Notes under the pieces: generated by a model | Told to the model about the DNA's origin: nothing | Databases searched by the model: none | Seen by the model: only the letters and a program-made list of their open reading frames with translations | Shown here: positions 8,565 through 10,448 of the stretch, one piece after another | Position numbering within the stretch: the first letter of the stretch is position 1 | Layout: every line of letters starts with the position of its first letter | NCBI GenBank assembly: GCA_002728035.1 | Contig: PBUZ01000042.1 | Span: 13,009 to 23,456, forward strand | Direction: 5' to 3' | DNA length: 10,448 bases | Source: Methanobacteriota archaeon | Lineage (GTDB): Archaea; Thermoplasmatota; Poseidoniia; Poseidoniales; Poseidoniaceae | Made by a program: the position numbers and the translations under genes

Positions 8565-9710
8565 TTACGACAGCAAGGAAACATGTTTCTTACCAATCTC
8601 TGCGACACGATGAAGCAGTTCTTCGAGTTGAATTCTTGATTGTGCCGATCGCTGCAATCGAACATCGCATATCGAGAGTGCTTCAAGAAGGTCGTTGAGC
8701 AACGCATCGGGATAATGGGTTCGGCCGGCGACGAGGAAATGGTGAAGGCGGTCAACAACACCTCGCCCGTCCAAATCATGCAGCGTCATCAATTGGTCCA
8801 GAGAGCCCATCGCGCCTTTCAGCACCCTTGCGTTTTTCTTGCCCTGCACTTCCCACTTCCAATCGTGCACTCTGCCTCGAAGGGCTTCTTCAAGCACCAA
8901 CTGAACTTCGCGTCGTGTGCTGTTTGACATCAACAATTGGACGTTGCTGCGTTGGTCCAATAGTTGGCGTTCCGAAAGCAATTGAAACATGAAGATGGAT
9001 TTTCGAAGATTGCCGTTGGACACATGAGCGATATCTCCCAAAACACCTTGGGTGGGTTGAATGCCTTCAGCGGTGGCGATGGTGTCGAGGCGTTGTTCGA
9101 TCATCAGCCGCGAAAGGGTCGGCATGCGCAAGTGTTGGGTTCGACTGCGCAGGGCCTCAATAATGCGAGACGGGGTATGCGTTGTGAAAATGAAACGGGC
9201 GCTTCGACTGCTTTCTTCCATCATTCGGCGCAGGTAGGATTGGCGGGCGTGCCCGAGGTAGTCGGCATCTTCGATGACAATGATACGGGATACGGGGGCG
9301 ATGGCTCCCACGGCAGGGGCGGGAGATTCTTCGCCCGCTGGCGGTGGTGAATGCTCGGCTGCGGCACTGATGTTGTGGTCGAAGGCGTCCAGACTTGTTC
9401 GACCTGCGAGGGTGTCGGCGGAGCCTGCGCCTTCTGGACGAAGGAATTCTTCGAATTTTGCCATGGCGCCTGCTGTTTTCGCAAGATCTCGTGCTTGCAG
9501 CACGTGGGTGGTTGCGCGCCATGACGGGCCCAGAACTTGTCGGCAAACGAGTTGATGGGCGGCGGTTTTCCCGCATCCGGTCGGCCCGGACAACAACAAA
9601 TGCGGCGGATTGGCTTGCAGGGAAAGATGCGTGAGTGAATCGATAACGCTGTCAGAGGTGAGCAGTTCATCGAAGCGTTGCGGCCTGTAAGATTCAAGCC
9701 ACATCGTCAT
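8565..9710 (-). CDS. Divergent RFC small-subunit-like clamp-loader AAA+ ATPase
   Basis: The 381-residue protein opens with MTMWLESYRPQRFDELL, matching the RFC box 'W.EKYRP...DE'. It has Walker A GPTGCGKT (42-49), Walker B IIVIEDAD (143-150), a sensor-1 region RFIFTTHTPSRIIEALRSRT (172-191) and the NGNLRKSI sensor-2-like helix. RFC loads the PCNA clamp during replication. Differences from ordinary archaeal RfcS (about 320 residues) are a Ser/Pro/Ala-rich insert at about 93-140, ED instead of DE in Walker B, no Asn in sensor 1 (TTHTPS for SCNYSS), and SRT instead of the SRC arginine-finger motif, with the Arg kept. This looks like a second, specialised RFC subunit rather than the main one. The ATG at 9710 or at 9704 could be the start; no strong Shine-Dalgarno is seen. 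It follows rpoP by 51 bases. Confidence 0.85.
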   Translation of the reverse strand: MTMWLESYRPQRFDELLTSDSVIDSLTHLSLQANPPHLLLSGPTGCGKTAAHQLVCRQVLGPSWRATTHVLQARDLAKTAGAMAKFEEFLRPEGAGSADTLAGRTSLDAFDHNISAAAEHSPPPAGEESPAPAVGAIAPVSRIIVIEDADYLGHARQSYLRRMMEESSRSARFIFTTHTPSRIIEALRSRTQHLRMPTLSRLMIEQRLDTIATAEGIQPTQGVLGDIAHVSNGNLRKSIFMFQLLSERQLLDQRSNVQLLMSNSTRREVQLVLEEALRGRVHDWKWEVQGKKNARVLKGAMGSLDQLMTLHDLDGRGVVDRLHHFLVAGRTHYPDALLNDLLEALSICDVRLQRSAQSRIQLEELLHRVAEIGKKHVSLLS

Positions 9711-10166: not shown

Positions 10167-10448
10167 TCAGCAATGACCACCGACAAGGCCGGGCATCAAG
10201 CGAATGCGGCTGTTGGCCTCGAGGTTCATCTCGGCCACGTCGGCTGCATTGACCAGCTGGTCGTTCACGAAGACCCAGGAGCCCTGGGATTGTGAGGCGG
10301 TGCTGGCAATCTCGGCTTGGGTCATCACGGCTTCGGTGTGACCTTCGGCGCTGGCAATCTCCACCACGAAGGTGGGGGCGTCTTGACCACCGACAAGGCC
10401 GGGCATCAAGCGAATGCGGCTGTTGGCCTCGAGGTTCATCTCGGCCAC
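10167..10448 (-). CDS. Tandem ubiquitin-like (polyubiquitin-like) protein, 5' part beyond window
   Basis: The frame is open from the right edge to a TGA at 10167. It contains one full 70-residue unit (starting QDAPTFVVEI, ending PGLVGG) and the last 23 complete residues of the unit before it. The final Gly-Gly is followed by His-Cys and the stop. The last 34 residues of the unit align without gaps to human ubiquitin 43-76, from WVFVNDQL against LIFAGKQL to the terminal GG, with nine identities and about six conservative changes. The first strand (TFVVEI) matches ubiquitin QIFVKTL. This gives a beta-grasp fold and a conjugation-type tail, so units are presumably released by cleavage after GG. 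The unit has no lysine, so internal Lys-linked chains are excluded. It heads a cluster with the Myb-like protein and rpoP. Conjugation is inferred; activating enzymes and peptidases are not in the window. Confidence 0.82.
   Translation of the reverse strand: MAEMNLEANSRIRLMPGLVGGQDAPTFVVEIASAEGHTEAVMTQAEIASTASQSQGSWVFVNDQLVNAADVAEMNLEANSRIRLMPGLVGGHC
10174..10238 (-). repeat. Direct repeat copy 1, polyubiquitin-like unit
   Basis: These 65 bases encode the C-terminal part of the last unit, from VAEMN through LVGG and into the next codon. They are identical base for base to 10384-10448, at a period of 210 bases, including all synonymous positions. Confidence 0.95.
10384..10448 (-). repeat. Direct repeat copy 2, truncated by window end
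   Basis: This is the same 65 bases as 10174-10238. The window stops inside this copy, so the true extent of identity and the number of units cannot be seen. A contig breaking here is what a homogenised tandem array would cause in short-read assembly. Confidence 0.95.

Follow-up and report, generated by a model that had tools for sequence, protein, structure and literature searches.

A capped tandem gene for predicted ubiquitin-like units in Marine Group II archaea, a likely polyubiquitin-style precursor

The window considered here is a stretch of 10,448 nucleotides from contig PBUZ01000042.1 (positions 13,009 to 23,456 of the forward strand; assembly GCA_002728035.1), which belongs to an archaeon of the family Poseidoniaceae (order Poseidoniales). 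Its right-hand extremity carries, on the minus strand, an open frame (10448..10167) that encodes a head-to-tail series of predicted ubiquitin-like (Ubl) units and closes with MPGLVGG-His-Cys and a TGA stop codon (10167-10169). Since the contig ends where the window ends (position 10448), this polyubiquitin-like gene is 5'-incomplete there. The original prediction, made from the letters alone, described head-to-tail units of 70 residues. The tandem layout is confirmed by a complete homologous protein (P0001, see below), but the window itself contains only one full unit and 21 residues of the preceding one (Table 1). The two extra residues, His-Cys, said to follow the last Gly-Gly (GG) are indeed seen in the translation just before the stop codon.

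The gene is real and the observation stands. The two 65-nucleotide copies carried by the repeat are 100% identical with a spacing of 210 nucleotides, the second one lying exactly at the contig end, and no further copy occurs elsewhere in the genome of origin (80% complete). Such an arrangement could point to an assembly error at the contig end. The existence of a single-unit form of 68 residues on 11 contigs (P0104), in which the unit 1 start of nearly the same protein is joined to the His-Cys cap, could be read in the same way. However, the entire gene is represented by P0001, a metagenomic protein of 138 residues found on two other contigs and 99% identical across the whole 93 residues encoded by the window; its unit 1, starting MFEVEVADASGHS, is followed by unit 2 and then by HC. 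Moreover, multi-unit genes with diverged units are found in many assemblies, including a single-contig genome (G011; CM001443.1). An assembly artefact is thereby ruled out for the repeat and refuted for the gene family as a whole, so that the probability left to it is negligible; the second copy, present in independent assemblies, is genuine. P0104 corresponds either to an assembly collapse over the identical repeat or to a natural loss of one unit, and strains may differ in unit number.

A search with the unit gave relatives in 66 of the 115 genomes of the window's family, in 92 of 193 genomes at the scale of the order and in 66 of 389 at the scale of the phylum, where all positives belong to one order, that of the window. 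In a named genome collection, two short patterns, one containing GG and both suited to close relatives only, retrieved 66 loci, labelled Euryarchaeota, Poseidonia, Poseidoniaceae or Poseidoniales, together with one Thermoplasmatota isolate. In the searches made, the relatives are thus confined to the order Poseidoniales (Marine Group II). The named loci contain 67 unit-bearing open reading frames (ORFs), and 52 of these carry two to four units in one frame (15 ORFs with one unit, 38 with two, 13 with three and 1 with four). Units within the genes of relatives are mostly visibly diverged from one another. In the sister family, which we take to be Marine Group IIb, 24 of the 26 positive genomes show a single unit match, and in the remaining two both matches lie in separate places. 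These single-unit versions suggest that the tandem copies were gained in the window's family. By analogy with the eukaryotic polyubiquitin genes (UBB, UBC and UBI4), tandem copies likely let each message yield more modifier.

The second half of the unit aligns with residues 43-76 of ubiquitin as stated in the original prediction, with 9 identities over 34 gapless positions, and comparison of the family profile with ubiquitin by hhalign recovered the same stretch (E=0.0032, for a single comparison). An hmmscan search of Pfam-A, made with the window protein and with a single unit, gave no match to the ubiquitin family (PF00240) up to E=1, nor to ThiS/MoaD (PF02597) or to the bacterial multi-ubiquitin family (Multi_ubiq). 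The PF00240 profile gave no match in the genome of origin, and the control likewise gave none. At the structural level, one unit is predicted to adopt a beta-grasp fold, as the original prediction implied; the model (predicted local distance difference test, pLDDT, 84.3; predicted template modelling score, pTM, 0.67) has the element order E-E-H-E-E-h-E and its structural neighbours are mostly ubiquitin, SUMO, ThiS, MoaD, TtuB and CsUb. The PGLVGG tail seems closer to the tails of MoaD, ThiS and SAMP proteins than to the LRLRGG of ubiquitin.

The genome of origin also contains an E1-like gene (G000:C79), which matches the Pfam model ThiF (E=3.4e-16) and no other, rhodanese included. The E1 copy of a relative has Cap2, Uba4, the NEDD8 E1 and the ubiquitin E1 as its nearest structures in the PDB. 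An SCQ motif is present in 120 of 120 homologues among the matches listed (of 296), and its cysteine would be the catalytic one. The E1 gene is adjoined by a gene for a predicted JAMM protease, and the two genes are adjacent for 36 of 37 distinct E1 ORFs (33, and 3 more). Among the JAMM homologues listed, 115 of 120 have the core motif and 112 of 120 the full motif. One JAMM alignment (A3, 30 rows) was drawn from 42 frames chosen by the pattern HxHP....YWS..D, so that, of its conserved residues, the invariant Glu alone does not reflect this selection; another (A8) comprises 48 of the 120 listed homologues and two locus frames, and includes none of the five homologues that lack the core motif. 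The fold assignment comes from a structural model (pLDDT 91.4), whose best matches are JAMM/MPN proteins, with PfJAMM1 first.

Ubl units and these partners co-occur. Across 115 genomes, Ubl and E1 are found together in 61, Ubl only in 5, E1 only in 8 and neither in 41 (p=1.3e-17); for Ubl and JAMM, across 193 genomes, the corresponding figures are 87, 5, 9 and 92 (p=1.5e-37). A single Ubl-Ubl-E1 protein is encoded in G001, G005 and G015, as well as in G012, where it spans a run of unknown bases, and in G024, G114, G004 and G187 the genes for Ubl, E1 and JAMM lie side by side. In the sister family, G208, G145 and G149 have one Ubl followed by an E1-JAMM fusion; for G213, G161 and G126, unit searches located the unit and the E1-JAMM ORF was read separately, and G182 and G222 have E1-JAMM ORFs as well. 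The JAMM motif of the E1-JAMM fusions of this second family is one residue shorter. Fusions and Ubl-E1-JAMM operons tie the three genes together. The simplest scenario would be an ancestral compact operon with a single Ubl; the window's family would afterwards have moved the Ubl gene out of this operon and amplified it. Among the partners considered in the original prediction, E1-like and JAMM proteins exist and accompany the units, but the E2 family PF00179 was matched in 0 of 115 genomes, with no control genome matching either.

The same partners could serve a sulfur carrier. According to this alternative, E1 would activate the Gly tail, which would form a thiocarboxylate and pass sulfur to tRNA or a metabolite, the tandem copies raising the dose only. 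The automatic JGI name of the protein, 'sulfur carrier protein ThiS', the structural matches to MoaD, ThiS and TtuB and the tail of the units, which we take to be MoaD/ThiS-like, are in favor of this idea. In addition, there are bacterial Ubl-E1-JAB operons tied to sulfur metabolism (PMC1779556). Nevertheless, the E1 of the genome of origin has no rhodanese match, and Pfam names no thiamine, molybdenum cofactor or sulfur gene among the eight same-strand neighbors tested in the window. Besides, this genome possesses a separate ThiS-family match, its sole PF02597 match (at C64), and a second, long ThiF protein. To our knowledge, tandem arrays are also unusual for sulfur carriers. Because of the lacking rhodanese match, the absence of sulfur or cofactor genes among these neighbors and the separate ThiS-family match, a role as sulfur carrier is weakened and, in our view, quite improbable.

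Variants of the three genes were seen elsewhere. Some versions of the small E1 have about 140 extra N-terminal residues (P0185, P0190, P0213, P0178). Ubl units are fused to a domain of about 300 residues directly upstream of E1 and JAMM at L185:1563-3014 and L125:5759-6841; for the additional domains that are joined to Ubl in G114 and G004, Pfam offered no convincing name. A second JAMM-like protein, mostly below the Pfam cut-off, is present in the genome of origin (G000:C9) and in 98 of the 115 genomes of the family, including Ubl-less ones; perhaps it serves an ordinary protein of the SAMP/MoaD type. A third gene, coding for about 79 residues, follows JAMM in most loci (L139:5764-6039, L188:4356-4640 and others), and Pfam gave no convincing match for the one product submitted.

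For the analysis of the unit junctions, a unit profile was built minus the two Gly columns and the residues that follow were then read. In the named loci, GG is found at 60 of 67 internal and 58 of 65 terminal junctions, the others (7 and 7) being AG, which makes 118 GG and 14 AG out of 132. In all seven genes involved, AG stands at the internal and at the terminal junction alike. Because GG belongs to one of the patterns by which the named loci were found, the reading was repeated on 30 loci found by homology only, and gave GG at 35 of 35 internal and 29 of 29 terminal junctions (64 of 64 in total). Homologues thus keep the GG expected at unit ends, or else AG and, as far as the sequences tell, internal junctions are as conserved as terminal ones. 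The last unit is followed by a cap. None of the 62 tails parsed in the named loci is empty, that is, none stops at the glycine; these tails derive from the 67 ORFs after removal of two that run off their contig and of three with more than 40 residues past the last unit, and two of them (34 and 8 residues) lie on broken contigs. In a second locus set, from which one frame was left out, 1 of 14 tails is empty, in an ORF with an FG end. Usual caps are Q, F, RAC, SVC, NHC and MASEVC, and among the matches listed (120 of 164) no homologue ends at GG. The cap masks the last Gly, and trimming would therefore be required if that Gly is to be used. Finally, within a gene the C-terminal halves of units resemble one another more than the N-terminal halves do: 29 of 93 units have their nearest unit in their own gene when C-terminal halves are compared, and 8 of 93 when N-terminal halves are compared. 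This likeness may be taken as a sign of homogenisation.

These junctions bear on the possibility that the cap alone is trimmed and that the uncut array is conjugated as a pre-made linear chain. A free Gly would be needed by the last unit only, a single JAMM cut would be enough, and the two-unit arrays, which represent 38 of the 67 ORFs, recall ISG15 and FAT10. This alternative is weakened because the internal junctions are equally conserved: their Gly ends are as strict as the terminal ones and AG occurs at both sites in each of the seven genes concerned. Moreover, the named loci differ in how many units they carry, from 1 up to 4. Conjugation of the uncut array is thus considered unlikely.

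Tandem units, Gly junctions, cap, and co-occurrence, operons and fusions with the partners can be read directly in the sequences. They lend support to the original interpretation, and it is likely, with a probability of roughly 0.6, that the capped tandem Ubl gene is a polyubiquitin-style precursor, cut by JAMM, whose units are activated by E1 for attachment to proteins. It can be proposed that JAMM cuts the precursor after every terminal Gly, by comparison with CsRpn11 and the single-unit CsUb precursor. The small E1 would adenylate the freed unit and carry it as a thioester on the SCQ cysteine, the unit would be conjugated to target lysines in the manner of SAMPs, with no classical E2 involved, and the same JAMM may remove conjugated units. 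Several observations weigh against this proposal. The resemblance to ubiquitin is weak by itself, as 9 identities out of 34 were equalled in 13 of 400 shuffles, the hhalign probability for ubiquitin was just 9.9% and the top phmmer match in the PDB, tetra-ubiquitin, had E=0.17. The complete unit of the window contains no lysine. The E1 homologues carry N-x-GHQ at a site where the usual E1 motif is NLQRQ. Finally, E1 is absent from 5 of the 66 Ubl genomes and Ubl from 8 of the 69 E1 genomes; some of the missing partners are perhaps due to incomplete assemblies. We also lean, slightly, toward the broader proposal that Marine Group II evolved its own polyubiquitin, with a capped tandem precursor, a dedicated JAMM, a minimal E1 and a complete protein-tagging pathway devoid of E2.

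Of the 65 loci compared (the window plus 64 of the 66 named ones, L065 and L081 being left out), 59 have a member of the RFC-like cluster downstream of the polyubiquitin-like gene and on its strand. With such a conserved neighbor, the hypothesis of a bacterial-type mobile operon is unsupported for the window gene. Between the two genes lies a small ORF whose product starts MSGDWTTNEEDLL, which we regard as reminiscent of SANT/Myb-like DNA-binding starts; Pfam analysis of the longer frame of this ORF gave no SANT/Myb-like match. A small downstream ORF occurs in eight loci at a median of 20 nucleotides; at E<=1e-10 that of the window stayed outside their cluster, and its likeness is by eye. Upstream of the gene, relatives encode a protein of 459 residues whose N-terminal part is rich in Pro and of low complexity (7163-8542 of L061, minus strand); its cluster is found in 45 of 65 loci. 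Seven same-strand genes of the window are named by Pfam (RFC-like, zinc-ribbon, FAD-binding/succinate-dehydrogenase-like, HIT, acyltransferase, DUF2299 and BNR-like), and the eighth one tested, coding for 503 residues, is without a match.

Other proteins lie close to Ubl, E1 or JAMM genes in several genera and contain paired-Cys, zinc-motif-like stretches followed by Trp (Table 1). They could possibly be ligase-like or target-recognition partners; the three that were submitted matched no Pfam family convincingly. A second, different Ubl locus is present in Poseidonia relatives (L134, G113:C4:34000-50000, at 3753-12230; L135, G094:C53). L134 encodes a protein of 581 residues with two GG-like ends followed by a JAB domain, two ThiF proteins of 500-518 residues, a CDC48-like AAA protein and more proteins that share their N-terminus with the 581-residue one. 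Two similar ThiF genes were seen in G094. The L134-type locus seems to be a distinct Ubl pathway that includes an unfoldase.

Table 1. Features of the polyubiquitin-like gene and its surroundings (window positions unless a locus is given)
Feature	Location	Strand	Basis
Polyubiquitin-like precursor gene (likely), 3' part, open at contig end	10167..10448	-	Open frame; P0001 homologue
Single complete 70-residue unit, ends MPGLVGG, predicted ubiquitin-like	10176..10385	-	Unit search (G000:C42:23184-23393); fold prediction
Last 21 residues of preceding unit (...RIRLMPGLVGG)	10386..10448	-	Unit search (G000:C42:23394-23456); rest known from P0001
C-terminal cap His-Cys, two residues after last Gly-Gly	10170..10175	-	Translation; homologue tails
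65-nt copy, C-terminal part of unit, identical to 10174-10238	10384..10448	-	Repeat comparison
65-nt copy identical to 10384-10448	10174..10238	-	Repeat comparison
RFC-like AAA+ clamp-loader gene, conserved neighbor	8565..9710	-	Pfam AAA, RFC lid, Rep_fac_C
Small 67-residue ORF, ATG 4 nt past stop codon	9959..10162	-	ORF reading; context only
Zinc-motif proteins upstream of Ubl	L096:5472-7109, L123, L185:178-1473, L186:1228-2415
Zinc-motif proteins downstream of JAMM	L131, L200

Tandem ubiquitin precursors are usually regarded as characteristic of eukaryotes, some bacteria having loosely similar proteins, and the known SAMPs are single units. Like the archaeal gene, eukaryotic polyubiquitin genes have short extra residues past the last unit and homogenised units. 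No paper describing an archaeal polyubiquitin-like gene was found among those listed from the accessible literature, subscription papers and preprints being outside the scope, in agreement with the original statement that no polyubiquitin was known from Marine Group II-like archaea. The archaeal gene has in common with eukaryotic polyubiquitin its head-to-tail units with Gly-Gly junctions (PMC11354881). It differs in that its units are only distantly like ubiquitin (9 identities among the 34 positions of the best stretch), its tail is PGLVGG, its units number one to four and its partners are a JAMM and a minimal E1; no E2 was found (with controls also matchless). Bacterial PolyUbl operons (type 6e; Iyer et al., 2006; PMC1779556) likewise encode proteins that have between one and three Ub-like domains, alongside JAB and E1-like proteins. 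They are however sporadic and associated with E2/RWD-like genes, whereas the archaeal gene has a conserved chromosomal neighbor and, in searches where controls were also matchless, no E2-like partner. These operons, as well as archaeal Jab-E1 fusions (PMC2948915), are thus already known.

Within archaea, the SAMP/UbaA/HvJAMM1 system of Haloferax also couples a Ubl to a JAMM (PMC4443979), and SAMP conjugation proceeds without E2/E3 (PMC11354881). In contrast to that system, Poseidoniales have multi-unit capped precursors, a dedicated small E1 and an adjacent JAMM. The Caldiarchaeum CsUb/CsRpn11 pair offers an archaeal Ub-like precursor with folds similar by structure comparison, the JAMM protein CsRpn11 cutting the single-unit precursor exactly after Gly-Gly (PMC6043591). 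CsUb is nevertheless made as one precursor unit of 87 residues, and its cluster has E2 and RING genes (PMC11354881). Fusions of the same logic were described by Makarova and Koonin (2010), namely Jab-E1 in the methanogen RC1 and Ubl-E1-TBP in Thaumarchaeota; the available text makes no mention of tandem Ubl units (PMC2948915). UCH and RING genes were reported from a Marine Group II single cell (PMC4327156).

If the predicted cutting and attachment hold, the gene would be an archaeal counterpart of the eukaryotic polyubiquitin genes, and protein tagging is suggested for a widespread group of marine archaea. The polyubiquitin layout would then have had an independent origin, with its own E1, its own JAMM, a conserved neighbor and single-unit relatives in the sister family, and the three genes would form a small system for direct tests of tandem modifier production.
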